Positions 1 to 42,951 of a stretch of 42,951 nucleotides of DNA are shown here, one piece after another. Each line of letters opens with the position of its first letter. The stretch's first letter is position 1. Position numbers and translations under genes: made by a program. Source of the DNA: a virus; IMG/VR virus record IMGVR_UViG_3300033148_007061, positions 1 to 42,951 of that record. One strand, written 5' to 3'. The notes beneath the pieces were generated by a model that was given only the letters and a program-made list of their open reading frames with translations, was not told the origin of the DNA and did no database searches.

Positions 1-97
1 GTGAAGGCCATACTTTAGCCGGCTCTAATCCAGCTACAGCCCTAGCCAAAAGAGTCGTCCCGCATCTAGGTATCCCTGCAATTATGATATGCTTCAT
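1..97 (-). CDS. sulfotransferase-like protein, 5' part only (duplicate of the gene at 42344-42934)
   Basis: This is the first 32 codons of the sulfotransferase-like gene that is complete at 42344-42934, present twice only because the contig ends overlap. The start codon at 97-95 overlaps the TGA of the methyltransferase gene at 94-96 (ATGA). The P-loop-like stretch GIPRCGTTLLARA is already within this part. It is not an independent gene. Confidence 0.9.
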   Translation of the reverse strand, partial: MKHIIIAGIPRCGTTLLARAVAGLEPAKVWPS

Positions 98-114
98 TTT
101 CTCTCCGCTATCCA
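1..114. repeat. terminal direct repeat, left copy
   Basis: These 114 bases are identical to 42838-42951. An exact end-to-end overlap with no partial decay is what a circular or circularly permuted genome gives when assembled, so it is most likely an assembly overlap. A true short terminal repeat of the packaged DNA is possible but less likely, because the overlap ends inside a coding region. Confidence 0.95.
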
Positions 115-987
115 GAGCTCCCTTTCAGGCTTTCTTACATATCGCTCTATTGCCTTAAATCCTTTCTCTCCGAACTTATCATATAGCCATGCTGAAGAAG
201 GCTTTGTTACATTCCCTCTATGTGTCAGCTCTTTGATATTGCTTTCATAAGCGCGGAGTTCAATAATAACGGTCTCTTTTGCTGTATCCAGTAGCTTTGT
301 GAAAAGCATCTCATATTCAAGGAGCGGAAAATAATGCAAAAGCCCAAGATTCATGACAATATCTGTTTTTTCCGGTTTATAAGACTCCCAATCGCATTCA
401 GTCAACAAGACTGATTCATGCAGTCCTAAAATCGTTATTGCTTTAGCCCCAGCTTTTATAAGCTCCTTCCTGATGTCGATTCCTACTGCACTTTTAGCCC
501 CCTGTCTTACAGCCTCTAAAACTGAATACCCGCAATGACAGCCTATATCCAAGACGGTTTTGTTTTTGAAATTAACCACCTTTTTGATAATAGGCCATTT
601 GTCTTTTGCACAAGCTCTTAACCAGCGGTAATCAAGACGGTGGAGTCTAGCCCCCTTATCCTCAATCTCTTTAAGCGATGCTTCGAGTAATCCCCAATAA
701 CCTGAATTCCGATGAATACATTTGCTGTAAATCTTAATATCGCATACAGCATTTTTCCTGTCTCTTCTATGGAGAGCCAGTATCCTATGAGCTCCATCTT
801 CGATTTGCCGGCAGTTTTTACAAAAATAAACAGGTAAAAAATCGGTTATCTCATCTGCTCTTTTAAGCCATATTTTATTTCTGGGTCTATTCAAAGCAGT
901 CCAGAATACAGGGTGATCCAAAGGCACATCCTGAACCGTAGTGCCTGCTCTTAATTTTAAAAAGTCCATGTCTTTTCTATATTTCAT
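94..987 (-). CDS. SAM-dependent class I methyltransferase
   Basis: The 297-residue protein has a Rossmann methyltransferase core in its C-terminal half. Motif I is VLDIGCHCG at residues 145-153, followed by an acidic strand end (VGIDIR) that would hold the SAM ribose, and a NLGLLHYF stretch like motif IV. The region just before motif I (YRWLRAC, then a short helix) resembles the CmoB/DUF1698-type arrangement. The N-terminal 100 residues carry CKNC (56-59) and further Cys and His, possibly a metal site. The ATG overlaps the stop of the upstream glycosyltransferase gene (984-987), and its own stop overlaps the sulfotransferase start, so it is translationally coupled in the glycan cassette. I infer a sugar O-methyltransferase. 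Methylation of another substrate cannot be excluded. Confidence 0.8.
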   Translation of the reverse strand: MKYRKDMDFLKLRAGTTVQDVPLDHPVFWTALNRPRNKIWLKRADEITDFLPVYFCKNCRQIEDGAHRILALHRRDRKNAVCDIKIYSKCIHRNSGYWGLLEASLKEIEDKGARLHRLDYRWLRACAKDKWPIIKKVVNFKNKTVLDIGCHCGYSVLEAVRQGAKSAVGIDIRKELIKAGAKAITILGLHESVLLTECDWESYKPEKTDIVMNLGLLHYFPLLEYEMLFTKLLDTAKETVIIELRAYESNIKELTHRGNVTKPSSAWLYDKFGEKGFKAIERYVRKPERELWIAERK

Positions 988-1676
988 TGTCCGAACTCCT
1001 TTTTTAGAACTGAAATATCAGCTCTTTTCTTTATAACATAACGCATATCCGGCCTTGAAGAAGTATTGATATCATGCAGCAGTACACAGAAATTACCGGC
1101 TGGAAGCTCCTCTGGATCCTGCTTTATCACTGCTTTATGCGTTGGGTGGCGTTTGTCTCTGTCAAACCTTTTAAGCTCTTTAGGATTGATCCGTCTAGCC
1201 CAAAAAGGTCCTGTCCCGATCGTATCATACTCATAAAACTTACTATTTTTTATATTTAGAGCATACCCATGCTTAAAATACATCCACTTAGACTTACACT
1301 GCATCATTATTTCCCCGGCATCTTTGGAATACATATCATCAGCATCAATAAGAGCCATGACGATTTCATCATATTCCTGAAGCCTCATAAGATGCGGTCT
1401 GTCTTTATAAGCATAGATAATACGCTTGTCCGGTCTATGGGGAAGCACACGCCTTGTCATATCTTTTAGAGCCGGGTCTAGAAGTATGATATAAAGAAAA
1501 TCCTCATATGTTTGGTTCAAGATAGAAGAAAGAGTATATTTCTGCCAGAGCCTAGCCCGCCTTTTTGTCCATTTCATGGTCTTTACAGGATGAATCGAGC
1601 CTTCAGGCAATCCCCGTAAAAGCTTAGAGCTTTGGTAAGAATTAAATGCTGTCCAGAATACAAGTTTCCGTTTCAT
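984..1676 (-). CDS. GT-A fold glycosyltransferase (rhamnosyltransferase-like)
   Basis: The 230-residue protein has the layout of small phage GT-A enzymes: a first strand LVFWTAFNSY, a RLWQKYTLSSILNQTYEDF segment, and the metal-binding acidic motif DADD at 111-114 after a hydrophobic strand. Near the C-terminus LLHDINTSSRPD looks like the conserved HxxNTSS end seen in putative rhamnosyl transferases (PF11316-like). The ATG overlaps the previous stop by four bases and the stop overlaps the next start. The donor sugar and acceptor are unknown. Its place between capsid and connector genes suggests late expression. Confidence 0.72.
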   Translation of the reverse strand: MKRKLVFWTAFNSYQSSKLLRGLPEGSIHPVKTMKWTKRRARLWQKYTLSSILNQTYEDFLYIILLDPALKDMTRRVLPHRPDKRIIYAYKDRPHLMRLQEYDEIVMALIDADDMYSKDAGEIMMQCKSKWMYFKHGYALNIKNSKFYEYDTIGTGPFWARRINPKELKRFDRDKRHPTHKAVIKQDPEELPAGNFCVLLHDINTSSRPDMRYVIKKRADISVLKKEFGQ

Positions 1677-2323
1677 CTATAGTTCCTTAAATATATTTTC
1701 TTATAATAATCACGCCTTATCTTTCGCATTTCTTTATTTCCGCAGAGCCTTTGTGCATCTTTTGACTCAGGAAGCCGATTATTATAATTTTTCGTTGGTA
1801 TTATATATTTCGGCACTTTAGGATATTTATAATTATGCCAGTAGATATCTTCAATCGGAGTAAGACAGCCCCTTAAGTCCATTGCCAAATATTTCCTGGG
1901 AGCACAGGTTATGACTCCAAGAAAATCCACCTTTTTCGGCTCTCTCAGCATATGCCCTGCATAAAGAGCAGTATCCCTATAGTAATCTTCACCTTCAAAG
2001 ATCCGGCCATGTATCCCGGTAACGCAATCCCCTAATATCTTATGCCATTTAATAAAATCATCTGCAAGCCCTGGCTTTGGAAGGATATCATCATCAGCTT
2101 TTATGACCAGGTCTCCATTTGTAAGCGTAGCTACAGCGTGGCGTACTTTATTCCCTGGGTCTGGGGAAAAGTAAACATAATTAAAACCCTTATGCGGAAA
2201 CGGAATGCCTTTTTTAGAGCAATCGCATAGCCAGACATCTGATACTTCATTAACCCATGCCTTCATTATCATTTCCAATCTTTCCAAACGCCTATAAGTT
2301 ACAATCACAACGCTGATTTTCAT
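1673..2323 (-). CDS. family 2-like glycosyltransferase
   Basis: The 216-residue protein opens with KISVVIVTYRRLERL, the classic first strand and loop of GT2 enzymes. It has the acidic metal/nucleotide motif DDD at 77-79 (KADDDILPKPG) and a later ED pair (IEDIYWH) in the position of a catalytic base. The C-terminal 40 residues are very basic. It is an ATGA-coupled member of the five-gene cassette. The first domain is confident. The sugar donor and acceptor are not visible. Confidence 0.82.
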   Translation of the reverse strand: MKISVVIVTYRRLERLEMIMKAWVNEVSDVWLCDCSKKGIPFPHKGFNYVYFSPDPGNKVRHAVATLTNGDLVIKADDDILPKPGLADDFIKWHKILGDCVTGIHGRIFEGEDYYRDTALYAGHMLREPKKVDFLGVITCAPRKYLAMDLRGCLTPIEDIYWHNYKYPKVPKYIIPTKNYNNRLPESKDAQRLCGNKEMRKIRRDYYKKIYLRNYR

Positions 2324-3786
2324 ATTTCCACCGTCCTATCTATCTGATCTGACCTTATAAGGTTTATGCCATAGCCTACTTCTTTTCTAAGTTTTCGGGA
2401 TGCCTGATAATGTATGATTACGGGTTCACATGTTTTAGCCTGCGGATAATCCCAAATACAGGTATAAGAAAACGGGAGTTTATATATATCGCTTTTTTTA
2501 AGCTGTCCCTTTTTAATCATTTCAATCATAGCCAATTTTAAACATTTCTGATGCCTTACATTTGATCGTTTAAGTGCTATATTATGCCATGTTCTTATGA
2601 GTTTACGCCCTTTTGCAGAGTTTCGGATCCAAAGCGTGCCGCTTAAAAGCTCATTCGCATCTCCAGACCGAGGAGAATATTCATAAAAATGAGCTGCTAT
2701 ATGATGCTCTTCTCTCTCTGAAAGCTTTGTAAAAAGAAATGGAGAGCGTTTTATTATGGCGTCTGCATCTACAAATACGATATCCCGGTCCTTAAATTCA
2801 TCCAGTGCCATAAGGATAGTCTTTGATTTGTAATTTAGATTTCCTCTCCAGGTCCCCGTAGGCTCAAAACTATATATCTTATGTTCAAGGTTAAAGCGTC
2901 TTAAAGAATCTTTAAGTCTCTCTATTTCCTTTTCATAGCCTGTTTCTATTGTATAAAATGATATGATAACCGGATATTTGATTTTCTCTATATTATTGAA
3001 TTTATCAAACTCAAAACATTTAAGTTTTGAATAAGGATTAAGATTTATGACTTTAATTCCTCTTTTTTTAAGCTCAGGGGCTATTTTCTCAAATCTGCTT
3101 ATAAATGATTTATAGACATTTTCTCCCTGCGGTTCAGGATAACCCTTATGCCACCAGGACTGCTTTCCATTCTTTCCCTTCATGTCATATCCTAAAAGAT
3201 AAATCGGATTAGCTCCAAGACATACAGCCAGGTTCAATGCCCCATAGCCTGAATTATTGCCAGTTGACAGGCCATCTTTTAAAGACCAGGAAAATCCATC
3301 ATTCCCTATACTAGGCACCATAAAAATATCTTCCGGATATTTATACCCATAAGCGTTTATCCATACTTTATAACCTCTGTATTTGTCCCATCTCTCTTTA
3401 GCCTCCTCACCTAATCGCCCTTGATAAAGCCAGTTAAAAAATCTCTTATCCATAGCAAAATTAATAGTGCAATCTATCTTCTCATATGCTCTATTAATAC
3501 CAATAGTAAGTTCGTTCTTCAGCTTTGAAAAATCAAAATCCTTTAAACTAGAGCCTCCGCCTATGATAAAACACCGCTGGCCTTTCCATTCCCCATCTTT
3601 AAGTTCAGAGGATAAAAGGCGGTCTTCAGGGGGAATATACCGCCTGTATCCTACGCCAGTTGTCTTGTGTGTAATATTGCCGATTCGTTTTATTTCAGCC
3701 CAGGCAGTCTGCTGCTGATTTATACGATTCCTGCGGTCAATAATCTCCTGGACTCTTTTATTTCTAGTCGTTATTTTAGGCATCAT
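2320..3786 (-). CDS. two-domain protein: MptE/DUF115-like plus GT-A glycosyltransferase
   Basis: I start at the ATGATG at 3786-3781 (488 or 487 residues). An upstream ATG at 4014 would overlap the capsid gene out of frame and translate a terminator. Residues about 70-270 resemble the MptE/DUF115-like family of phage and flagellin-glycosylation loci: CFIIGGGSSLKDFDF near 72, IGINRAYEKID, and NSGYGALNLAVCLGANPIYL followed by LGYDM. Residues about 290-488 look like a GT-A sugar transferase with a DAD metal motif near 340 (VFVDADAII). The fusion joins two glycan-related domains in one chain. The gene directly follows the capsid terminator, has a weak ribosome site, and heads the glycan cassette. 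Confidence 0.72.
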   Translation of the reverse strand: MMPKITTRNKRVQEIIDRRNRINQQQTAWAEIKRIGNITHKTTGVGYRRYIPPEDRLLSSELKDGEWKGQRCFIIGGGSSLKDFDFSKLKNELTIGINRAYEKIDCTINFAMDKRFFNWLYQGRLGEEAKERWDKYRGYKVWINAYGYKYPEDIFMVPSIGNDGFSWSLKDGLSTGNNSGYGALNLAVCLGANPIYLLGYDMKGKNGKQSWWHKGYPEPQGENVYKSFISRFEKIAPELKKRGIKVINLNPYSKLKCFEFDKFNNIEKIKYPVIISFYTIETGYEKEIERLKDSLRRFNLEHKIYSFEPTGTWRGNLNYKSKTILMALDEFKDRDIVFVDADAIIKRSPFLFTKLSEREEHHIAAHFYEYSPRSGDANELLSGTLWIRNSAKGRKLIRTWHNIALKRSNVRHQKCLKLAMIEMIKKGQLKKSDIYKLPFSYTCIWDYPQAKTCEPVIIHYQASRKLRKEVGYGINLIRSDQIDRTVEI

Positions 3787-3877: not shown

Positions 3878-4945
3878 TTATGCAGTGTCGCAACGTTCCA
3901 GCTGGTCTGTGTCTGCAATAGCTCCTGCAAAAGCCATCCAGCCTGCCACTGTGTCTGTTCTGGAAAGCATATCAAAATCTGCATATGTAACAAGATCCAT
4001 CCGGTCTCCGCCAACGATTTTCCTCTTGGGGAGTATTACCCAATAATGATCTTTAACAGTCAGCATCGTGGTTATAATAGGAGTGAAATTGTAGTCTATA
4101 ACTGGAGTGGAGCCTGTAACATTGTCATAGTTGACACCCAAAGCTCTCTTGATCCGCCCTCTCAGTTGAATAGGTGCAAGGACAATGAACGAGGCATTTT
4201 GAGCAGAAATCCCAAAGCCTTTTGTCTGGCAAGCCAAAAGAATAGTCTGTGCCGCAAGGTTCATCGTAGCTGCATCCCTCTGAGCCTGATATCCTCTTGT
4301 CCCTGCTGCCAAAGCATCAGGTGAAGCCTGCCATGCTATATCTGCTTTAAGAGCTGCAACTGCTTCAATCAAGGCATAATAAGTAGCCGCCTTTATCCGG
4401 AAAGCCTCATTCCGGAATTCAATCGCATTTTCCTCAAGTGTCCACCAGTCCTGATTTTCAAACAGCTTCCTATCCCAGCCTAAAGCTCCGCCATAATAGT
4501 CAAAAAACACATACTCCCTGTCTCCTGACATCTGATAGACTTCCAGCTTTTCACCTGTGAGCATCTTCTTGAATGTCAGCCCGCTTGTTACGGTATCAAC
4601 AGCAAAGCCATCCCTTCTTGAGCCTGTATAATCTCTCATGTTAAAAATGGTTTCATATCCATTGTCATAGACGTCCATCTCATGATACTTATCAATCGCC
4701 TCTTTTGCTGTAGCAGGGAAGTCGTTCAGCGTGGCAAAATACTGAGCTTGGATTTCATTGAATTCCTTCTTCTTTTCAAGGAATTTTTTGTTGCTTCTGA
4801 ATTTAGGGGGGATAGTCCTATTGGGAAGTGCAAAAAAGAACTGAAGTGCATCCATGACTTTTCTCTGATGCTCAGGGTCTTTATTAGGACCAAAAAGCTT
4901 ATCAGGATTAACTTTTGTCCAGTCTTTTATTATTTGTCCTCTCAT
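3878..4945 (-). CDS. major capsid protein (HK97-fold type)
   Basis: The 355-residue protein sits after the portal, protease-scaffold and decoration genes and has the composition of an HK97-fold capsid subunit. An N-terminal charged helix is followed by an E-loop-like stretch (YETIFNMRDYTGSRRDG), a long alpha-helical spine with ALIEAVAALKADIAW, and a P-domain strand region ending with WVILPKRKIVGGDR and DMLSRTDTVAGW. The ATG has AAGGAGGTAGAAA just upstream. A strong terminator follows it. Assignment rests on gene order and overall pattern, not on a single motif. Confidence 0.82.
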   Translation of the reverse strand: MRGQIIKDWTKVNPDKLFGPNKDPEHQRKVMDALQFFFALPNRTIPPKFRSNKKFLEKKKEFNEIQAQYFATLNDFPATAKEAIDKYHEMDVYDNGYETIFNMRDYTGSRRDGFAVDTVTSGLTFKKMLTGEKLEVYQMSGDREYVFFDYYGGALGWDRKLFENQDWWTLEENAIEFRNEAFRIKAATYYALIEAVAALKADIAWQASPDALAAGTRGYQAQRDAATMNLAAQTILLACQTKGFGISAQNASFIVLAPIQLRGRIKRALGVNYDNVTGSTPVIDYNFTPIITTMLTVKDHYWVILPKRKIVGGDRMDLVTYADFDMLSRTDTVAGWMAFAGAIADTDQLERCDTA

Positions 4946-4956
4946 TTTCTACCTCC

Positions 4957-5373
4957 TTAAGTAGCCTTATCGCCTTTTAGGTCAATCATGACCTGAGTGG
5001 CACCTTCGGCGGCTGCTTTAACGCAAGTTCCGATCCACAGATAACCGCTTGAGCTGTTAGGGGTCACAGAAGCACCCTGCGTCCCTGACCAATAAACCTT
5101 GTCGCCAGGCAAGAAACTATTCCCTGATCCAGTCTCTTTGTACACCATGATTTTCTCAGCATGGTAAATCAGAACACCTTCATCGCCAACTGTTATTTCT
5201 TTGTCCTCTTTACACCCAGCAGCTGAATAACTAATATCAAGCATCAGAACGCCAACTGTATCCTCAATCTTATACAGCTTTCCTTCTTCATATGTAACGC
5301 CTGATTCAGCATGGGTGAACTTAAAACTCCGCCAATCTCCCATTGGAGTGGCTGTCCTTATAAATTGAGCCAT
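4957..5373 (-). CDS. capsid decoration/stabilisation protein, DUF2190-like
   Basis: This 138-residue, Gly- and Val-rich beta protein lies directly upstream of the capsid gene. It shows the DUF2190 style: alternating beta strands, a GDKVYWSGTQGAS turn and a strand-rich end (TQVMIDLKGD). Proteins of this family form trimeric capsid cement. The ATG has GGAGGC upstream. The 11-base gap to the capsid gene implies co-expression in near equal amounts. Confidence 0.72.
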   Translation of the reverse strand: MAQFIRTATPMGDWRSFKFTHAESGVTYEEGKLYKIEDTVGVLMLDISYSAAGCKEDKEITVGDEGVLIYHAEKIMVYKETGSGNSFLPGDKVYWSGTQGASVTPNSSSGYLWIGTCVKAAAEGATQVMIDLKGDKAT

Positions 5374-10819: not shown

Positions 10820-11016
10820 TTTTCCCACAGCCATTTTTTTACTTTTTTAATAGCCTTTTCCTGGGCTTCTTTTGTCTCTGCTTTCAAAGCCTTTGCTACA
10901 GCCTTTTTAATTCCCTTTCGCTGGCGGTTATCCCCTATGACATATACCCAGTCCTCTATTTGTTCTTTCAGGTCGAATATCCGATTCAGCAGTGTTATTA
11001 TTTCTTCAAAGTTCAT
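10816..11016 (-). CDS. hypothetical helical protein in lysis cluster
   Basis: The 66 residues form two amphipathic helices. The second is Ala/Lys-rich (GIKKAVAKALKAETKEAQEKA) and ends KKWLWEK. ATGA overlaps couple it to the endolysin before and the lipoprotein after. It has no membrane segment and I recognise no family. Confidence 0.65.
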   Translation of the reverse strand: MNFEEIITLLNRIFDLKEQIEDWVYVIGDNRQRKGIKKAVAKALKAETKEAQEKAIKKVKKWLWEK

Positions 11017-11486
11017 TCTTCAATACTCCTGAAAGGGTCAGTATAAATGACCTTAAAACCTTGCCTTCTCTCTATTTCCTGTTTGAGAGAGTCCTTTTTG
11101 ATATATGCGTTTTGCTCTATAGCCTCTCTTAGTGATGTGATTCCTCTTCCCCCTCCTGAGGCATGGATAATAAACTCACTATCCACACACATTGCTACAT
11201 GTTTAGCCTTTAATTCCAGAGGATGGATGAAAAAGACAAGACAGCCGGCATAGGGTCTCTCTACTGTATATTGGGAATATTTTCTTCTCAGCCCTTCGGC
11301 TGTATAATCAGAGAACCGTTTTATAAGCCCATGAGCTTGGAGTACTTCCACTATCATTCCAGAACAATCAAATCCTTCTAGTGGATTTTGACCGCCCCAG
11401 AAATACGGAAGCCCAAGCCAGCGTTTAAGATAATCCACAGCCTCGGCTCGGATATATTCCTGCCTGATTAGAGAATTATTTGCCAT
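11013..11486 (-). CDS. NlpC/P60-type peptidoglycan peptidase (endolysin candidate)
   Basis: The 157-residue protein begins at the ATG at 11486. An adjacent GTG at 11489 is an alternative. It has the NlpC/P60 pattern: LGLPYFWGGQNPLEGFDCSG with catalytic Cys41, KHVAMC with His96 and FIIHASG with His108. It would cut peptide cross-links in the cell wall at lysis. There is no signal peptide, so a holin must release it. It neighbours a holin-like gene and a lipoprotein. A virion-associated role is less likely because it lies outside the tail module. Confidence 0.83.
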   Translation of the reverse strand: MANNSLIRQEYIRAEAVDYLKRWLGLPYFWGGQNPLEGFDCSGMIVEVLQAHGLIKRFSDYTAEGLRRKYSQYTVERPYAGCLVFFIHPLELKAKHVAMCVDSEFIIHASGGGRGITSLREAIEQNAYIKKDSLKQEIERRQGFKVIYTDPFRSIEE

Positions 11487-11581
11487 CACCTATAAAAATA
11501 GGGATAAATAATAATAAATGCAAATATTTTTTAAAGGAAGGTTTGTTTTTTGGAAGGGTTTATATGGGGAATTTTAAATAT

Positions 11582-15378: not shown

Positions 15379-15576
15379 TTAGATTACTCCCCTCCCCCCA
15401 AGTTTTTCCTTTAGCACTTTGATGCAGTATTTAAGGGATTTGATATCATAATCAATATGAGGCATCGGTTCTCTCGTGCTTTTTTTTAGTAAATTGTAAT
15501 TAACAATCATCCATTCTAATTTTGTAATCCACCTCTCCAGCATTTTTCGTTCCTGTTCTTTTGGTTCATTTGTCAT
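15379..15576 (-). CDS. hypothetical helical protein, 65 residues
   Basis: The chain is charged helices (EQERKMLERWITKLEWMIVN, then SLKYCIKVLKEKLGGRG) and starts 11 bases before the stop of the Ala-rich gene upstream, behind AAAGGAGCAATC. The two-helix hairpin pattern suggests an oligomerising accessory protein. I do not recognise it. Confidence 0.65.
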   Translation of the reverse strand: MTNEPKEQERKMLERWITKLEWMIVNYNLLKKSTREPMPHIDYDIKSLKYCIKVLKEKLGGRGVI

Positions 15577-16141
15577 CAGATTGCTCCTTTAATAACCTAA
15601 CTCCATAGTTAATTATTTTATAAGTTATTTCTTTGTCTCCAGCGGCATCAACAGCCTCAATAGCACTATCGGCAGCATTCCAAGCAGCCCCGACAGCACC
15701 ATCCCCAACAGTCCCAGCGCTATCAGCAGCTCCGATAGTAGCCCAGGCAGCACTCCAAGCAGCGGTAATAACGATAGCAGTAGCCTTATAAGCAGCATAA
15801 GAAGCAACCCTAGCAACAAAAGCGCTTGTTTTCTTGTTTGGATTCTTTAGCCAGCTTTTAGCCGCCTGAATTGCCTGTCTAGGACGTTTATCATTAGGAT
15901 ATTCCTTCTCAAATATAGGCAGTGCTAATTCCGCACAATATATGGCAAACCTCACCCTATCTTTCTTTATCTTGAATAATCGTGGTATAGCCCAGCATAA
16001 CCATTCATATTTATCCTTAATATTAGACTTGCGGAGTCTGTCAATTAATTCAAATACATCTTCTGTATCTTGTTTTTCAATCCATTCTACAGCCTCATCA
16101 CAAGGCTCCCATTTTTTAATCCATTTTTTTGTTATTTTCAT
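15566..16141 (-). CDS. Imm-5-like Ala-rich protein
   Basis: The 191-residue protein has three parts. An N-terminal helix region (KKWIKKWEPCDEAVEWIEKQ) is shared with the pseudogene at 14833-15223. The centre, YCAELALPIFEKEYPNDKRP then RQAIQAAKSWL, matches proteins I associate with the Imm-5-like putative immunity domain in phages and toxin loci. The tail of Ala/Trp/Tyr helical repeats (AAWSAAWATIGAAD and onward) ends RLLKEQSDDK. Imm-5-like proteins are proposed toxin antidotes, but their role in phages is unknown. The ribosome site AAAGGAGCAATCCAA is inside the end of the preceding gene. Confidence 0.65.
   Translation of the reverse strand: MKITKKWIKKWEPCDEAVEWIEKQDTEDVFELIDRLRKSNIKDKYEWLCWAIPRLFKIKKDRVRFAIYCAELALPIFEKEYPNDKRPRQAIQAAKSWLKNPNKKTSAFVARVASYAAYKATAIVITAAWSAAWATIGAADSAGTVGDGAVGAAWNAADSAIEAVDAAGDKEITYKIINYGVRLLKEQSDDK
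16064..16141 (-). repeat. 78-bp direct repeat, copy 2
   Basis: Exact second copy of 15146-15223. It forms the 5' end of the intact Imm-5-like gene. Confidence 0.95.
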
Positions 16142-18165: not shown

Positions 18166-18664
18166 TTCTTAGCTCTCTATTCCATTTTTTTAAAACCCAA
18201 GCACAATTCGTATCTAATAAAAAATTCCATTTAATACATAGATTTATTGTGTATCCATAATGAATAACAGAATGTCTTGGTTTTACATATTTACTAACGT
18301 TATCTTTCCATTCATTTTTTAACATAAGTTTCTTGAGATTAGACATTGAGACCTGATATAATATATATGGAAACATGCCTTGTAGGTAATAAAAATAATG
18401 AATATAATCAGCTTTTGTGTCATAAAACCACCCGGAATCAAAAGGCCATACATTCTGTATTAACTCAATCGGACAATCTGAATGATAATAGGTTAAAGCC
18501 TTCTCCTCAATCTTTGCTTGTTTATTATCTTTTACTAAAACAACATCGTAATATCTATTTTCTTTGCCCCTAATCCTTTTAACAATTTGATAACCAAGTT
18601 CTTTATATATCCTATCCAGTTCTATTTGATATAATTTTTCAAATTCAAATGTATCTTGATTCAT
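18158..18664 (-). CDS. PD-(D/E)XK-like nuclease next to the adenine methyltransferase
   Basis: I start at the ATG at 18664, overlapping the methyltransferase stop as ATGA (168 residues). Residues about 35-60 give YYDVVLVKDNKQAKIEEKAL, an Asp strand followed by an EEK strand, the core of PD-(D/E)XK nucleases. WPFDSGWFYDTKADYIHYFY is a later signature of this phage nuclease type. The C-terminal 60 residues contain Cys and aromatic residues. It may repair or resolve DNA, or act as a partner of the upstream methyltransferase. The nuclease fold is likely, the biological role open. Confidence 0.65.
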   Translation of the reverse strand: MNQDTFEFEKLYQIELDRIYKELGYQIVKRIRGKENRYYDVVLVKDNKQAKIEEKALTYYHSDCPIELIQNVWPFDSGWFYDTKADYIHYFYYLQGMFPYILYQVSMSNLKKLMLKNEWKDNVSKYVKPRHSVIHYGYTINLCIKWNFLLDTNCAWVLKKWNRELRNA

Positions 18665-19653
18665 ATTTCTAGTCCCCAAGAATCCCAACCATTAACCTTT
18701 TTTCTTGCAAAAAGCTCAATGCGATTTCCAGTTGGGTAAAGCATATCTATGATCTCTCTAAATTTTTCCGGTTTTTCTGAATGTCTTGTCCTTTCAATAG
18801 ACACGACATTGTCAATAAGTTTTTTTGTATCCGGCGTACAGCTTCCTTTGGTACAGATTAAAAGCAATTCGCTTCTTACTGATACATAATATCCAAAGTT
18901 ATGCTTTATTTTATCCCAAACGATACCTGTTTTATATTGGAATCCCCATGCTTTTATGACCTTAAAACATTTTTCTAAAAAAGGAAATGTAACCCATAAG
19001 AATAAAACAGCATTATCCTCAGTTTTTGGCATCTCCATATCGCAAAGTTCATCAATGGACATAGGTGAATAATGTTTTGGTATATTGCCATATTCGTCTC
19101 CTCGATGATAAGAATCAGATACACCGGTTAATCCCTGCTCTGTATATTTCCAGGGTGGGTCTGCATAAATGATCCTATAAATATTTTTTGGGATTGGCGG
19201 TGATTTAACCGATTTTTCTGATTGTGAAAAACGCAAAAGCCCAGCCGTTGTCAATTCTTTCCCTTCTTGATTACAGAGATTCTCATATTCCAAAACTTTC
19301 TCTTTTGGGATACATGATTCCTTTGCCCATTTATGAAAAGTTTTTTTGTCTTTGCCAACATCTTTTATAATGGCTTGTTTTCCCGTGGGGGATTTAGTCC
19401 CCGACGGGGAATGTATACCTTTTTTTAAATATTTTGTGCTTTCATCTGGTGCTTGTTTATAAAATTCTCCTGCTTTCTGCTCTAAAAATATTCGATATCG
19501 TGAACATTTATTTTGTGTTCTAAGGCTCCCGTCTGTTTGTTTGATTAATATTTTAATAGCCTCGACTTGCTCTTGCATCTTTACAATGCTTTTCAAATCT
19601 CTTGCTTCATCGATTTGATGTTCAATTTCATCCCATTTAACAAGATTACTCAT
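18661..19653 (-). CDS. MT-A70 family N6-adenine DNA methyltransferase
   Basis: The 330-residue protein has an N-terminal helical half and a C-terminal MT-A70 domain. It carries the catalytic motif DPPW at 165-168 (IIYADPPWKY), then LFLWVTFPFLEKCFKVIKAW, GFQYKTGIVWDK, a SVRSELLLICTKG strand and RHSEKPEKF, all in the order of phage MT-A70 enzymes. It would methylate adenine in DNA, perhaps to evade restriction. The ATG at 19653 follows AGGAGG by 4 bases, and a TTG at 19656 is possible. A promoter and structured leader lie upstream, at 19807-19961. Confidence 0.88.
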   Translation of the reverse strand: MSNLVKWDEIEHQIDEARDLKSIVKMQEQVEAIKILIKQTDGSLRTQNKCSRYRIFLEQKAGEFYKQAPDESTKYLKKGIHSPSGTKSPTGKQAIIKDVGKDKKTFHKWAKESCIPKEKVLEYENLCNQEGKELTTAGLLRFSQSEKSVKSPPIPKNIYRIIYADPPWKYTEQGLTGVSDSYHRGDEYGNIPKHYSPMSIDELCDMEMPKTEDNAVLFLWVTFPFLEKCFKVIKAWGFQYKTGIVWDKIKHNFGYYVSVRSELLLICTKGSCTPDTKKLIDNVVSIERTRHSEKPEKFREIIDMLYPTGNRIELFARKKVNGWDSWGLEI

Positions 19654-19795
19654 CAATCCTCCTGGTGAATTTAACCATGTCTGAAATGTTATGGATAATA
19701 ATTTTTCCTGATTTTTCTTCCATAAGAAGAATTATTTTTCCCTTGTATTTTAAACCATAAAATCCATTTAGTTTAATTACTGAAAATTTCCTCAT
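19646..19795 (-). CDS. small beta-rich protein, 49 residues
   Basis: The ATG at 19795 follows GGGGGAAATAA, just after the U tract of the structured element at 19817-19889. The chain MRKFSVIKLNGFYGLKYKGK and onward gives four beta strands typical of a small SH3-like fold, with a basic end. It overlaps the methyltransferase start by 8 bases. The function is unknown. Confidence 0.58.
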   Translation of the reverse strand: MRKFSVIKLNGFYGLKYKGKIILLMEEKSGKIIIHNISDMVKFTRRIDE

Positions 19796-23175: not shown

Positions 23176-23868
23176 CTAACTGCTTATTTTTTGCTTTAAT
23201 TCTTCTATTTCTTTTTCTAGTTCATTGACTTTTGTTTTTAGATTAAGATTGTGTCTGCGATTAAATGCTTCCTTTCGACACTTAGGGCTACAGTATTTCT
23301 GCCAATACCTGGTTTTTGTAAATTTTTTATGACATACCATACAAACAGCCTCATTTTTGTTTTTGGATTTAGGATGATTTTTGATGTATTGTTCTCTTGA
23401 TTTTTTATTCCGATATTCAGTTCGACATACAGTCGAGCAAAATTTTATACGTGATCTTTCTGCATAAAAACGCTCTTGACAATTTTTGCAAATTTTAGAA
23501 TAAAGTTTTAATTTCTTCTTTTTTTTAGGAGAATCATTTTTAAGGATAACATTTGAAAAAGCTATTCTAAAAACTTTGGTGGGGTATTTAATGTTATATC
23601 CATTCTTTCCGGCAAAGGATTTATAATAGCCAATCCATTTATTTTCCAGTTTATTTAACAATTTTAAATCTTCAGTTTTTTCAAGGATATGGAACGAAAA
23701 GGCTTCTTTGCCATATTTATTATATGAATTCTGTAAATGCACATTGAAGTGTTTATTGTTTTCTAAAAGATGCTTATGGTTTAAAAGCCTTTTGTCTAAT
23801 TGTTTAGATTGTCCAATATAAATTTTATTGTTCAATTTGTTTTCTATACAGTAAATTCCCGCATTCAT
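23176..23868 (-). CDS. GIY-YIG endonuclease with two zinc fingers
   Basis: The 230-residue protein begins with a GIY-YIG nuclease domain: GIYCI at 4-8, YIGQS at 17-21, and the conserved HLQNSYNKYGKEAFSFHILE helix near 43-62. Two CxxC fingers follow, CKNCQERFY with FCSTVCR, and CMVCHKKF with YCSPKCR, and then a coiled-coil end. This is a free-standing homing-type endonuclease of the segF/seg class. It probably spreads itself by cutting relatives lacking it. A neighbour's finger at 23878-24066 is very similar. Confidence 0.85.
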   Translation of the reverse strand: MNAGIYCIENKLNNKIYIGQSKQLDKRLLNHKHLLENNKHFNVHLQNSYNKYGKEAFSFHILEKTEDLKLLNKLENKWIGYYKSFAGKNGYNIKYPTKVFRIAFSNVILKNDSPKKKKKLKLYSKICKNCQERFYAERSRIKFCSTVCRTEYRNKKSREQYIKNHPKSKNKNEAVCMVCHKKFTKTRYWQKYCSPKCRKEAFNRRHNLNLKTKVNELEKEIEELKQKISS

Positions 23869-25202: not shown

Positions 25203-26366
25203 TTAATTATCTCTCCACATTCTATATTGTTCGACTACCGCTTTCATAACCTGCCATTGTGCCACCCCTTCAAAGGTATAATAAGGGCTTCCTGGATGCG
25301 GTTCTCTTATGTCATTCTTTCTGTGCATCTGCATGAGTTCTATTCCACGCCCACCGTCCTCAAGCATCTTATGTGTAAGCTGTATTGCCATTGCCTTTGA
25401 GATAAGCACTTTTTCACCATCCTTTTTATATCCATCCGTACTTATCATCCATTTGACTCCAGGGATAGGCACCCTTTCGTTATAAGCATCTATGTCTCCG
25501 ATTTTATGAGCCTGGTATATCCAGCCTTGCATCATCTGTGCTGTAATACCGCTTTGGGGAAGTGCAGAGGAAATCTTTTTCCATTTAGGGAAAGATGTGC
25601 CTGTTGCCTCGTTTATAATCCTTGTCATATTCACGTGAAAGCTCAAGTACGGGTCAATCTCATTCCCAGCATTAAGCCCTATGAATTTAAGCTCCTCTAC
25701 TGAAAACCTGGCTCTTATTTCCCGGATAATAAACTTTATAAACTTTTCATAAAGCATATGCGTATTCTGAGCTTTTTCAGACGTATTATCCCAATCGTAT
25801 ATGTCTGATGGGGATTTTCCTGTATTAGCATTATTCACATCCCCGTTGAGGAAATTATTCCCCCAGCTCATAGCCGGTGACCAGTGGCAAGAACAATTAT
25901 CTATAAGGTCAATCGAAAGGAATATTTTCCGCTCCACGAACATCTTAATCCGCTTTAAGACGATATCAAGATATTCTGGGTTTATCTTCTCTGCTATATC
26001 TCCAGCTACATCATATTTGCCTTGTGCGTTTTTTAGAAAAGGCTGATGCATCCATTGGGTATGTTTCCATTTCCAATTTACCCAAAGGAAAACCCTGATG
26101 CTGTTTCCTGCTTCCTGTTTGCAGAACTCATCCAGAAAGGCTTTAAGGTCAGCATCCTTTACCTTATGGGCTACGAGGTATTCCGGCATGAAGGCGGTCT
26201 GCAGGTATATGGGATATCCGATAGTACTTACAATAGTCGGCAACTGGATATCCTGGGCTACGGTTGGAATAGAAGGCGGAGGCGGCGATTCTGGGTCAGG
26301 GTCATTATTATGGCTGCATACAAAAGAAAACAAAAGCAGTATTAAAAATAATGTTTTAATCTTCAT
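25203..26366 (-). CDS. secreted lipoprotein glycoside hydrolase-like (clan GH-A type)
   Basis: The 387-residue protein starts with a signal peptide (LFLILLLFSFVC with Cys17 as a possible lipid site), then a Pro/Ser-rich linker. The rest looks like an (alpha/beta)8 glycosidase: RVFLWVNWKWKHTQW, a YLDIVLKRIKMFVERKIFLS barrel helix, and GLNAGNEIDPYL, where NE at 235-236 matches the Asn-Glu of clan A acid/base sites. The second catalytic Glu is not clear. It probably acts on glycans outside the cell, at the virion or host envelope. It is the last gene of the late run. Confidence 0.68.
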   Translation of the reverse strand: MKIKTLFLILLLFSFVCSHNNDPDPESPPPPSIPTVAQDIQLPTIVSTIGYPIYLQTAFMPEYLVAHKVKDADLKAFLDEFCKQEAGNSIRVFLWVNWKWKHTQWMHQPFLKNAQGKYDVAGDIAEKINPEYLDIVLKRIKMFVERKIFLSIDLIDNCSCHWSPAMSWGNNFLNGDVNNANTGKSPSDIYDWDNTSEKAQNTHMLYEKFIKFIIREIRARFSVEELKFIGLNAGNEIDPYLSFHVNMTRIINEATGTSFPKWKKISSALPQSGITAQMMQGWIYQAHKIGDIDAYNERVPIPGVKWMISTDGYKKDGEKVLISKAMAIQLTHKMLEDGGRGIELMQMHRKNDIREPHPGSPYYTFEGVAQWQVMKAVVEQYRMWRDN

Positions 26367-27105
26367 CGTTTAATTCTTTAAAGAAAAACTTCAAATCGCA
26401 ATTAGGCAATAGCTCTATGTTCTGGGTAACGCAATGGCCGCCGATTATCCCATCAGGTGGATAGAGAATAGGTCTTATAAACTGAGGTCGTCCAATCGAT
26501 TCATAGCCCTGGTTATAACTTTTATTTGCCTGGGTATAGACGTTTTTATAATCCACTCCATATTTATCGCAAAGTTTTTTTACTTCTTTTGCATATAGGA
26601 TGTTCCAGCCATAATAAGTAGTGCTTAAAATCTTTGCCAGCTCAAGACCAATTGACTTCCCAGCCCACCATTCCCATTTAATATTTAATTCTTCAAAATG
26701 ACTTATGATATCTTTTTTTGCCTGATTGTTTTCTACGAAAGAAGATGCTATATATTTAATAAAGTGATTTTTCACTGCTTCGTAAAGATGGTCATGGCAT
26801 CCTCTGATTGGTGAATAAAAAAGAATAGGGCTGACTGTCTTCTGTATGGAATTTGTCGTGCCTGGTTTTACAGTCGAATGAATAATTACATATTTAGGTT
26901 TATATGCTCTGCAATACCTTATAATCGATTCTTCAAAAAAATGGCTGTAAGGAAAACAGGCGTGCATAATGAAATGATTTTTTGTAATTTGCCCTCCATT
27001 GTGAACAGGGTCAAGAATTTCGCATTTGTTTCCAGCCTCTTTTTCAATTCTTAATATGACCTTTCCTACATCACCGCATCCGGCTATAAGTATTTTTTTG
27101 TTCAT
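26356..27105 (-). CDS. truncated UDP-glucose/GDP-mannose dehydrogenase-like protein
   Basis: The 249-residue protein resembles the first two domains of nucleotide-sugar dehydrogenases. It has a Rossmann GCGDVG at 9-14 and STVKPGTT at 77-84, then the middle-domain signature LELAKILSTTYYGW at 154-167 with the conserved Lys and GGHC at 222-225, the active-site Cys position. It ends soon after that, without the C-terminal UDP-binding domain. Either a different partner completes it or it has a changed role. It is coupled to the glycoside hydrolase by an 11-base overlap. Confidence 0.72.
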   Translation of the reverse strand: MNKKILIAGCGDVGKVILRIEKEAGNKCEILDPVHNGGQITKNHFIMHACFPYSHFFEESIIRYCRAYKPKYVIIHSTVKPGTTNSIQKTVSPILFYSPIRGCHDHLYEAVKNHFIKYIASSFVENNQAKKDIISHFEELNIKWEWWAGKSIGLELAKILSTTYYGWNILYAKEVKKLCDKYGVDYKNVYTQANKSYNQGYESIGRPQFIRPILYPPDGIIGGHCVTQNIELLPNCDLKFFFKELNDED

Positions 27106-40712: not shown

Positions 40713-41008
40713 GCTAAAAATACCTCCTGAGCTACATCGCTAAAATCCTTCACATACCTTACTGTAATTATTGAATATTCAACACCATTTATTTTCAATC
40801 TATCTTGATGAGTCAAATCTCCATCATAAAGAATATAAACAGAACCCCTGGAAACAACCTCCTCTCCATTAATATTCCTTATAAGTCTTGTTTTCCAATC
40901 CACATAACCTTTAACATCAATTTCCAATGCAGCTAAAGGCTCATTCCAGTCATCATCCCCCTGCCAACGGAGAATGGTTATATCATCTACGCAATAGGCT
41001 CTAATCAT
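40709..41008 (-). CDS. head closure/stopper protein
   Basis: The 99 residues are beta-rich (ITILRWQGDDDWNEPLAALE, then VDWKTRLIRNINGEEVVSRG and VYILYDGDLTHQDRLKINGV). This is the layout of SPP1 gp16-like or gp6-type closure proteins. It stands between the Mu F-like and gp10-like genes. ATGA overlaps link it to both. Confidence 0.7.
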   Translation of the reverse strand: MIRAYCVDDITILRWQGDDDWNEPLAALEIDVKGYVDWKTRLIRNINGEEVVSRGSVYILYDGDLTHQDRLKINGVEYSIITVRYVKDFSDVAQEVFLA

Positions 41009-41883
41009 ATCCTAGCCTCCCTGACTTCTATTGCCTCTTGAGATGTTGGGCTTGTATTGTGCATACATGAGGGGTGGAAAGGCGTGTATTGATCCATATA
41101 AGGATACTTTGTGCTTTTGCCACTTAAAGAATAAACATTCCCTTCATAAGGCAAGCAAATCGGGCATTTTGTCCCATGATCTGAAATCTGCACCAAATCA
41201 TTTTCAAACTGTTCGCATGCTCTTAATACAGCCCTCGTCTGGATAGTCCTTAAGCGTGTACGACTTACCATCCGTCCGTAATAGATAAGATCATAGTTCC
41301 TGCCATTTATGTTTATATACTTCCTCTCATAAGCTTGCCGGCCAAAATGTTCCCTTATAAGAGTCTGGAGCCTCTGTCTTGAAGCCCCCTCTGCAATTTC
41401 TTCATCCAGCAACTCAGCAATAACCGCCTCGTCCCTTAGGTCAAAATACTGTATATTTTGGATCTGCCTCCCAGCCTGGCGTATCAGATATAAATATGTA
41501 GCAACGTTTGTAATAATGCTTTGATTAGCCCTTATATAAACATCTATTGTCTCCTCTATTCCCTTTTCGATTTCTTGCTGATGCAGATTTGTATTATAAT
41601 CAGGCTTCGGCTTTTTCCCTAATATTTCAAGGCGTGTTCTGGCTATAACATAACTTTTTTTATAAGCTTCCGGAACAGCAATATTTACCCAACGGATGAC
41701 TCTGCGATTAAGTTTCTTCACAATATCCTTTATTTTTTCTTCGGTTTTTATAAGCTTCAATTCTGTAATTTCCCCAGAAACCGCTCTTAACAGCTCATCT
41801 TTAATCTCATCAGATGCTTTTTTATAGATTTGTCCTATATCGGCTGTTTTATCTCTGAGCGGTATTAATCCTTGTTTAGCCAT
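41005..41883 (-). CDS. Mu F-like minor head protein
   Basis: The 292-residue protein has a helical first half (ADIGQIYKKASDEIKDELLR). The C-terminal part has TRLRTIQTRAVLRACEQF, then CPICLPYEGNVYSL and PFHPSCMHNTSPT, the conserved CxxC...HPxC end of phage Mu F/SPP1 gp7 head morphogenesis proteins. It is a minor structural component at the portal. The start overlaps the previous gene as TAATG. In many phages it sits near the portal, but here it lies beyond the glycan cassette. Confidence 0.82.
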   Translation of the reverse strand: MAKQGLIPLRDKTADIGQIYKKASDEIKDELLRAVSGEITELKLIKTEEKIKDIVKKLNRRVIRWVNIAVPEAYKKSYVIARTRLEILGKKPKPDYNTNLHQQEIEKGIEETIDVYIRANQSIITNVATYLYLIRQAGRQIQNIQYFDLRDEAVIAELLDEEIAEGASRQRLQTLIREHFGRQAYERKYININGRNYDLIYYGRMVSRTRLRTIQTRAVLRACEQFENDLVQISDHGTKCPICLPYEGNVYSLSGKSTKYPYMDQYTPFHPSCMHNTSPTSQEAIEVREARI

Positions 41884-42347
41884 TAAAATTCATCCACCTC
41901 TGTATCAACAGATTCGTCCTCATCTCTATCAACATCCACCATACCAAATGTTTTTGCAGTCTTAAAATCCTTTAATAAGGCATCTACAAATGGAGGCACT
42001 GGAAGCGACATCAAATCATCTTTATTGTAATCCTCTTTAACTATCCCAGCCTTAATCACAGCCTGAGCCTGGAGTCCTTTTCTGCGGTCTTCATCCTCAA
42101 GATGCTGAGCCAGATAATAAGCCATTTCACCGTTTACTTTCTTGAGAATCACAAGCTGTGCTGCTGATGCTTCAGCATAAGTAGGAACATCATATTTAGG
42201 GCTGTAATAGATGCGGTTATAAGCGTTTTTTACAGCTTTTGTTTTTGCAGCATCATCTGATAAAGCATCCCAGACTGTTGTTATAAGGCGTTCATCTGTA
42301 AAATACGATTTTGCTTCTGCTAAATCATCAAACCATCCTAGACTCAT
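41883..42347 (-). CDS. head-tail adaptor-like protein (154 residues)
   Basis: The chain is helical: SLGWFDDLAEAKSYFTDERL, AVKNAYNRIYYSPKYDVPTY, AQLVILKKVNGEMAYYLAQH. This matches DnaT-like/gp6-like adaptor proteins that bind below the portal. An acidic end (DRDEDESVDTEVDEF) follows. It is the first connector gene after the glycan cassette and overlaps the sulfotransferase stop as ATGA. Confidence 0.7.
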   Translation of the reverse strand: MSLGWFDDLAEAKSYFTDERLITTVWDALSDDAAKTKAVKNAYNRIYYSPKYDVPTYAEASAAQLVILKKVNGEMAYYLAQHLEDEDRRKGLQAQAVIKAGIVKEDYNKDDLMSLPVPPFVDALLKDFKTAKTFGMVDVDRDEDESVDTEVDEF

Positions 42348-42934
42348 GACGCCCTCCCTTTAATCAATTTTATATCCGGCATCTTCTCTGTTTTTAAAAT
42401 CAAAGAAGAATAAGCCTTGCAAAGCATATCTAATTCATCAGAAGACAGGTGTTCAAGTTTTGAATGCCGCTCCCTTTTAGGTGGAAGCTTTATGTCTCTA
42501 TGCGGTGAAACAGCACTTATAAACCATTCGATTTCTTCTTTATATTTCCATAATTTTTCATATCTCATAGCAGATACATAAAAAGGGAATTCGCCGCTTG
42601 TCCAAAAATCAAATATCTTCTCATAGTTAAGATAATCAGCTTCGAGGATATTTATCTTTTCCGGGTCTCTTTTACATAAGCAATTCTCAAAATGTCTTTT
42701 ATCCATCCGAGTCCGTTTCGTGCTTATTATCGCCTTTGGTATATTCCCGAATAGAAATATACAGCCGCATGCATTGTTTATGTCAGCCTTTGATACCTTG
42801 AGATGTCGCTTTATAACCCCGTTTACAGGCTCTTGACGTGAAGGCCATACTTTAGCCGGCTCTAATCCAGCTACAGCCCTAGCCAAAAGAGTCGTCCCGC
42901 ATCTAGGTATCCCTGCAATTATGATATGCTTCAT
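42344..42934 (-). CDS. sulfotransferase-like protein
   Basis: The 196-residue protein opens with IIIAGIPRCGTTLLARAVAG, the P-loop-like site that binds PAPS 5'-phosphosulfate in sulfotransferases (PRSGTT type). Later come IISTKRTRMDKRHF, in the place of the 3'-phosphate loop, and SAMRYEKLWKYKEEIEWF, the RYExL signature. It is shorter than typical sulfotransferases (about 250-350), so its acceptor-binding part is reduced. It follows the methyltransferase gene by an ATGA overlap at the contig junction. Transfer of sulfate to a glycan is the likely job. Confidence 0.78.
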   Translation of the reverse strand: MKHIIIAGIPRCGTTLLARAVAGLEPAKVWPSRQEPVNGVIKRHLKVSKADINNACGCIFLFGNIPKAIISTKRTRMDKRHFENCLCKRDPEKINILEADYLNYEKIFDFWTSGEFPFYVSAMRYEKLWKYKEEIEWFISAVSPHRDIKLPPKRERHSKLEHLSSDELDMLCKAYSSLILKTEKMPDIKLIKGRAS

Positions 42935-42951
42935 TTTCTCTCCGCTATCCA
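42838..42951. repeat. terminal direct repeat, right copy
   Basis: Identical to bases 1-114. Joining the copies restores one intact sulfotransferase gene and the ATGA overlap with the methyltransferase gene, which supports circularity. Confidence 0.95.

Follow-up and report, generated by a model that had tools for sequence, protein, structure and literature searches.

The window analyzed here is the entire 42,951-nucleotide stretch of the viral IMG/VR record IMGVR_UViG_3300033148_007061 (positions 1 to 42,951), and its subject is a cassette of five minus-strand genes predicted to build and cap a sugar chain. The genes lie at 2320-3786, 1673-2323, 984-1676, 94-987, and 42344-42934, the last being reached across the contig ends. 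Neighboring genes overlap by exactly 4 bases, ATGA, at 2323/2320, 1676/1673, and 987/984. Another ATGA overlap at 97/94 links 94-987 and 42344-42934 once the contig ends are joined, and an overlap at 42347/42344 couples the fifth gene to a head-tail adaptor gene. For the first gene, two starts come into question, the ATG at 3786 and an upstream TTG (4014), the latter overlapping the capsid gene. The upstream border is the major capsid protein (MCP) gene (3878-4945, minus strand; phrog_24071, E 1.2e-27, and relatives L008-L036, where L numbers denote related viral contigs and loci), whose match to Phage_capsid_4 (PF25209; E 5.8e-5) was under the cut-off. Next to it is a capsid cement/decoration protein gene (4957-5373, minus strand; PF09956, E 4.8e-7; phrog_122), and both proteins are possible glycan acceptors. 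The downstream border is an Ad1-like head-tail adaptor (41883-42347, minus strand) with a weak match to phrog_477 (E 0.0045) that is kept at the slot end in relatives, followed by phage minor capsid protein 2 (41005-41883, minus strand; PF06152, E 8.1e-11; phrog_4611, E 1.2e-29). An initial annotation made from the letters had described five ATGA-joined genes between the capsid and the head-tail connectors, and the coordinates, overlaps, and flank profiles agree with it. A search of GTDB genomes with the window capsid for a host gave no match.

The cassette continues through an exact 114-bp end repeat (1-114 and 42838-42951). Joining at this repeat gives a circle of 42,837 bp in which the start ATG of the sulfotransferase-like gene, at 42934, coincides with position 97. 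The identical 114 bp also occur at the end of L003 (L003:13538-13651) and the start of L006 (L006:1-114), both from the same sample, so the stretch is probably an assembly-graph node common to sister strains and not a packaging repeat, which leaves the closure of this one circle unproven. Gene order is safe despite this doubt. The adjacency of the methyltransferase and the sulfotransferase-like gene holds because L003 runs from the methyltransferase into the node and L006 from the node into the sulfotransferase-like gene.

The first gene (2320-3786, minus strand) encodes a two-domain glycosyltransferase (GT) of 488 amino acids counted from the ATG at 3786, with an N-terminal DUF115/Maf/GT42-like domain and a C-terminal GT-A domain, as assigned from profiles, AlphaFold2, and VIA-align. 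The first half matched phrog_4603, an alpha-2,3-sialyltransferase (E 1.4e-25), and the second half matched PF03407, a nucleotide-sugar transferase family (E 5.6e-5). PF01973 (Maf/DUF115, MptE-like) scored 17.3 bits against a gathering cut-off of 34.6, the best relative reaching 26.0, and for this reason we call the protein Maf-like and not a Maf protein. The AlphaFold2 model was good (predicted local distance difference test (pLDDT) 81, predicted template modeling score (pTM) 0.80). In VIA-align, the solved structure nearest to residues 49-348 was the Magnetospirillum Maf flagellin GT 5mu5 (Z 15.7, 197 residues, root-mean-square deviation 3.4). The nearest to residues 269-469 was A64R of Paramecium bursaria chlorella virus 1 (PBCV-1; 2p73, Z 18.4), a GT linked to capsid glycosylation, and many other GT-A enzymes also reach Z 14-15 with this C-terminal domain. 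His213 of the window protein is invariant. Maf enzymes O-glycosylate Ser/Thr residues of flagellin, and their central domain, Maf_flag10, is similar to Cst-II, a sialyltransferase (PMC11339370). A fold shared with Maf or A64R does not equal a shared function; from the model, the N-terminal domain is a candidate initiating protein O-glycosyltransferase and the C-terminal GT-A domain a candidate extender.

The 1673-2323 product (minus strand) is identified as a GT2-like glycosyltransferase through its L005 relative and through homologues that many slot phages carry in their cassettes. A Pfam scan gave no match and NCBIfam gave a weak one to EpsD. The L005 relative, with 51% identity, matched Glycos_transf_2 at E 1.4e-4, just under the cut-off. 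The 984-1676 product (minus strand) is a GT-A-type, putatively rhamnosyltransferase-like glycosyltransferase (PF11316 Rhamno_transf, E 6e-4, under the cut-off) with a weak NCBIfam match to TuaG and a DADD motif; it has homologues in 10 other loci, including L123 at 59%. The 94-987 product (minus strand) exceeded the Pfam cut-offs for PF13649 (32.5 bits, cut-off 27) and PF02353 (34.3 bits, cut-off 27) and is a class I S-adenosylmethionine methyltransferase, a candidate sugar O-methyltransferase.

The last cassette gene (42344-42934, minus strand) encodes a sulfotransferase-like P-loop protein. Its product contains a 5'-phosphosulfate loop of the GxPRxGTT type, AGIPRCGTT, in which R11, G13, and T15 are invariant in four sequences. 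In the alignment of these four, the 3'-phosphate motif (R..P......S) keeps an invariant Ser71, with Gly or Phe at the Arg position, and the four-sequence profile of the family matched human SULT1B1 over residues 6-144 (139 residues, E 0.0035). A bacterial homologue is encoded next to a flippase within an exopolysaccharide locus, and the window gene occupies the same slot position as the classical-motif sulfotransferases of relatives. From the loop motif, the weak profile matches, and the context, the product is probably a sulfotransferase dependent on 3'-phosphoadenosine-5'-phosphosulfate (PAPS). A second sulfotransferase type, marked by the motifs GRSGTK and R[DN]PxxxWLS, holds the last enzyme position in L005, L010, L011, and L013, the L011 copy being read without the loop. 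The profile of the classical-motif slot sulfotransferases found no sulfotransferase match in the PDB. Clear sulfotransferases occur elsewhere in like cassettes, in L123 (PF00685, 61.1 bits, cut-off 22) and L122 (PF13469, 44.1 bits, cut-off 27). Searches of cultured phages by tblastn returned none for the window protein or its L005 counterpart, and single-gene searches of viral contigs with the sulfotransferase-like, GT2, and GT-A proteins returned almost only sister contigs. An NCBIfam match of the 42344-42934 product to the PylS N-terminus, far under the cut-off, and matches to AAA-protein P-loops were put down to chance or to the P-loop itself. Of the enzyme identities given in the initial annotation, the Maf/DUF115 fusion and the methyltransferase stand, the other two GTs are reasonable, and the sulfotransferase is probable by profile, motif, and context.

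MCP relatives gathered from IMG/VR placed the cassette in a fixed slot with variable content. Among relatives with roughly 40% identity or higher and contigs long enough to include the following genes, a Maf-like GT opened the slot in 19/19 (L008, L010-L015, L020, L023-L026, L029, L030, L032-L036), either immediately after the MCP or separated from it by one or two small genes; one of them, L008, is a sister almost identical to the window. A 116-amino-acid cupin (PF07883) stood before or after the Maf-like GT in several MCP relatives, and the contigs of L009, L021, and L027 stop after this cupin, which often goes with the Maf-like GT. Behind the Maf-like GT the slot content differed among relatives and comprised GT2 copies, GT4, GT9, and TOD1/MUCI70 GTs, as well as five consecutive Methyltransf_24-type genes (L020), a GDP-mannose-dehydratase-type epimerase (L010), a pyruvyltransferase with LicD (L025), and dehydrogenase/transketolase genes (L024). 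These neighborhoods bear out the view of the initial annotation that the genes form one cassette, as many phages have the homologues grouped in this slot, rather than scattered and never together. The capsid gene of L014 (L014:10254-10979) looks interrupted, with 241 amino acids read and a tblastn match spanning almost the full query, possibly through a sequencing error.

Maf-like GTs also adjoin other head types. A profile search with the Maf-like domain found 455 relatives in viral contigs, of which the best 80 were kept. A recognized head gene lay no more than three genes from the Maf-like GT in 64 of the 72 loci that had upstream sequence, a fraction that is not a general estimate because these best 80 are biased toward close relatives. 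The 64 comprised an MCP, cement, or head protein in 43, an adaptor of PHROG 1623-type heads in 17, and another connector in 4. L106 had a VP882/Klebsiella-phage-type MCP, confirmed through cultured relatives, and L091 had a further head type with a confirmed portal; the isolated Tetraselmis viridis virus S20 adds another. Local profiles across 81 non-redundant Maf-like loci detected one of the two slot sulfotransferase types in at least 6 and a methyltransferase of the modeled kind in at least 28; these counts are lower bounds, as many contigs are cut and the L122 and L123 sulfotransferases fall outside the models. L123, from a 168-kb phage record, has the window order of Maf-GT (47%), GT2 (57%), and GT-A (59%); GT4, a methyltransferase, and a clear Sulfotransfer_1 domain (E 1.4e-16) come next without a break. 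A 454-amino-acid protein at L123:12104-13468 combines a weakly GDSL esterase-like front half with a clear sulfotransferase back half.

We consider it likely that the five genes are a virion-glycosylation locus in which the Maf-like enzyme attaches the first sugar of an O-glycan to a head protein and the other enzymes extend and cap the chain. The locus would be expressed together with the late head genes. In the cytosol of the infected cell, the Maf-like N-terminal domain would move the first sugar from a nucleotide-sugar onto Ser/Thr hydroxyls of an abundant head protein, capsid or cement. The C-terminal GT-A domain and the 1673-2323 and 984-1676 products would then lengthen the chain. The 94-987 methyltransferase, and probably also the 42344-42934 sulfotransferase, would cap it with methyl and sulfate, and the finished particle would display the glycan on its outside. 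The Maf-like domain is nearly always first, which makes it the candidate initiator. That the cassette adjoins head genes in phages of several head types suggests a head protein as acceptor, and capping enzymes recur across the cassettes scanned. Of this scheme, the gene order with its overlaps, the fold class of the first protein, the methyltransferase, and the conserved, variably filled slot are observations, while the acceptor, the sugars, the sequence of steps, sulfation by the window protein, and the benefit to the phage are proposals. The building and capping of a sugar chain, as put forward in the initial annotation, is soundly reasoned; the target, left there as either the virion or the host surface, is narrowed by evidence that favors the virion.

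Transmembrane-like segments were absent from the five window proteins, and Pfam scans of the window and of the relatives' cassettes scanned recognized no flippase, polymerase, or polyprenyl-phosphate GT, so that glycosylating a cytosolic protein directly from nucleotide-sugars would be the simplest route. The cassette also departs from a gtrABC-like serotype-conversion signature (membrane flippase GtrA, polyprenyl-phosphate GtrB, membrane Gtr). The same absences count against a role in which the enzymes alter the surface of the host, either late in infection or during lysogeny (serotype conversion, superinfection exclusion, or decoy-receptor shedding), and lie in the head operon only so as to be expressed late. 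Serotype conversion is the classical role of phage GTs, the sulfotransferase-like protein has its bacterial relative in an exopolysaccharide locus, and LicD and pyruvyltransferase are found in surface polysaccharides. However, the Maf-like GT repeatedly comes right after the MCP or adaptor in several head types, late expression would leave little time for envelope remodeling, and there was no sign of lysogeny among the window genes scanned. We regard host-surface modification as unlikely, although it carries the most weight of the alternatives to virion glycosylation.

Some slots contain further structural-looking genes. Between the sulfotransferase-like gene and the adaptor, L006 has three (L006:612-2934; 88, 566, and 119 amino acids), and L011 has extra ones between the sulfotransferase and the adaptor (L011:5467-8483; 88, 363+291+142, and 119 amino acids). 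The 566-amino-acid L006 protein ends in repeats like AEADVKKGVGYGANGAEFEG, with a last part 90% identical between phages and a front that differs, and the repeat-ending protein of L006/L011 is possibly a variable head or neck fiber. In L029, low-complexity repeat proteins (glycine-rich and GTAAISG-type repeats; L029:10341-13558) lie between the glycan genes and the adaptor. The glycan might go onto tail or neck fibers, such as the variable repeat proteins beside the cassettes of L006, L011, and L029, and not onto the capsid shell. The extra repeat-bearing genes of L006 and L011 fit this idea, as do Caulobacter phages that have a homologue near tail genes, but the window slot lacks such extra genes and the large majority of loci have the Maf-like GT after the MCP or adaptor. 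Fiber glycosylation ranks just behind host-surface modification and is improbable in our judgment. A third use of the enzymes, glycan hypermodification of phage DNA bases, is given some precedent by virus-encoded GT clusters that can put diverse glycans on DNA (Pyle 2024, as cited in PMC12619734) and by the MT-A70 gene in the window. Against it, the window proteins scanned included no hydroxymethylase, TET/JBP, thymidylate-synthase-like, or base-kinase product, the cassette lies within the head module and apart from the replication genes, and the similarities of the first gene are to protein and capsid GTs. This makes DNA hypermodification the least weighty alternative, and a very improbable one.

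Several observations weigh against virion glycosylation, or against sulfation as one of its steps. In the 42344-42934 product the Arg for the PAPS 3'-phosphate is unrecognizable, with FGNIPKAIIS in place of RNPxDxxxS, and the protein reached no curated cut-off (PF13469, E 0.086). Structure prediction, which the initial annotation had suggested as a check, succeeded for the first protein, with its Maf-like and A64R-like folds, but was poor for the fifth (pLDDT 33, from a two-sequence alignment), whose model was not used. Profile comparison of the window sulfotransferase-like protein with the other slot sulfotransferases gave an unconvincing 20.7% probability; lacking a convincing alignment, we treat the two groups as separate families in the same place and not as homologues. 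The slots of the MCP relatives Microcystis phage MACPNOA1 and L038 (26-27% identity) and L037 (39%) had no recognized GT, which limits the association to nearer relatives, and the 80 best of the 455 Maf-like loci are themselves skewed to near relatives. Genes around the L123 cassette were not recognized as head genes, and in Caulobacter jumbo phages the homologue, accompanied by a GT, a methyltransferase, and a GT9, neighbors tail and lysis genes. The cement and capsid alignments had no obvious conserved Ser/Thr-rich tail, and the glycan on these particles is a prediction.

Under virion glycosylation, the capping set would differ by phage, as in an O-antigen locus, giving a lineage-specific particle glycotype that would affect adsorption, decoy binding, charge, or protection. 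With somewhat less than an even chance, this may extend to a general arrangement in which tailed phages with unrelated heads keep an exchangeable, serotype-like glycan locus beside the capsid gene. A Maf-derived enzyme would initiate the head O-glycan, and swapped GTs and methyl, sulfate, pyruvate, or LicD-type phospho caps would give each its own glycotype, including the first sulfated phage virions.

Capsid glycans are already known in mycobacteriophages. In Che8 and relatives, phage-encoded GTs decorate subunits of the capsid or tail tube, with a shielding effect (Freeman et al. 2023, doi 10.1016/j.chom.2023.05.028, as summarized in PMC12619734 and PMC11256854). The likeness lies in phage-encoded GTs and glycans on virion proteins, which here are a prediction from gene content. 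In contrast to the window, the GT genes of Maravista are near the genome 3' end and not in an MCP-adaptor slot, according to PMC11256854, and the portions of the citing accounts that deal with the system do not mention a Maf-like initiator, sulfotransferase, pyruvyltransferase, or LicD. In chloroviruses and other giant viruses, methylated capsid glycans made by the virus itself are established or have been proposed (PMC4691112). PBCV-1 likewise encodes its own machinery, and A64R, the nearest fold to the C-terminal domain of the first window protein, also has a methyltransferase-like domain. However, PBCV-1 is a eukaryotic virus with N-linked and O-linked sites on Vp54 and a separate evolutionary setting, and the relevant sections of that account describe no sulfotransferase step. 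Maf flagellin GTs (PF01973; 5mu5; PMC11339370) share the N-terminal fold and are protein-directed, sequon-free Ser/Thr transferases acting on a self-assembling surface protein. They target flagellin with nonulosonic-acid donors, whereas the window version is fused to a second GT in a phage head operon, in a cassette where no sialic-acid genes were seen. Sulfotransfer_3 genes are present in marine phages, where their function was called unclear (PMC10580990), whereas here sulfotransferases are part of glycan cassettes. The isolated Tetraselmis viridis virus S20 (NC_020840) carries a pair of sialyltransferase-like genes, a methyltransferase, and two GTs between a probable MCP, assigned by position as the gene after the protease, and the head closure gene Hc1, but its head type is unrelated and no sulfotransferase is annotated; we found no account of the S20 cassette.

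The literature searched, which covered few subscription journals, yielded no description of a fixed variable slot, a Maf-like fusion or initiator, or recurring sulfate, pyruvate, and LicD caps, nor of a phage GT cassette that joins a sulfotransferase or pyruvyltransferase to capsid genes. The initial annotation's view of novelty is corrected by the mycobacteriophage virion glycans, so far as PMC12619734 and PMC11256854 relate them, and by the methylated capsid glycans of chloroviruses. The variable fixed slot, the Maf-like initiator, and the sulfate-type capping are the elements we did not find described.

If the proposed function is correct, many environmental phages carry lineage-specific, chemically capped sugar coats made by their own enzymes, and phage particles may bear far more varied sugar coats than recognized. 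This would bear on how phages avoid wrong surfaces, on their survival in soil and sediment, and on immune recognition in therapy, and would give a concrete role to the phage sulfotransferases of unclear function. A Maf-like GT adjoining the MCP offers a genomic marker for choosing phages for mass spectrometry, and the cassettes are a source of compact, soluble enzymes predicted to glycosylate and cap proteins.

Elsewhere on the minus strand of the window, near the tail genes, the 26356-27105 product has weak yet above-cut-off similarity to UDP-glucose/GDP-mannose dehydrogenases (PF00984, E 1e-6; phrog_9148, E 3.9e-7) and could supply a sugar-acid donor. The same strand encodes the MT-A70 methyltransferase (18661-19656), a GIY-YIG nuclease (23176-23868), an NlpC/P60 protein (11013-11489), and an Imm-5-like putative immunity protein (15566-16141; PF21805, E 1.3e-11).

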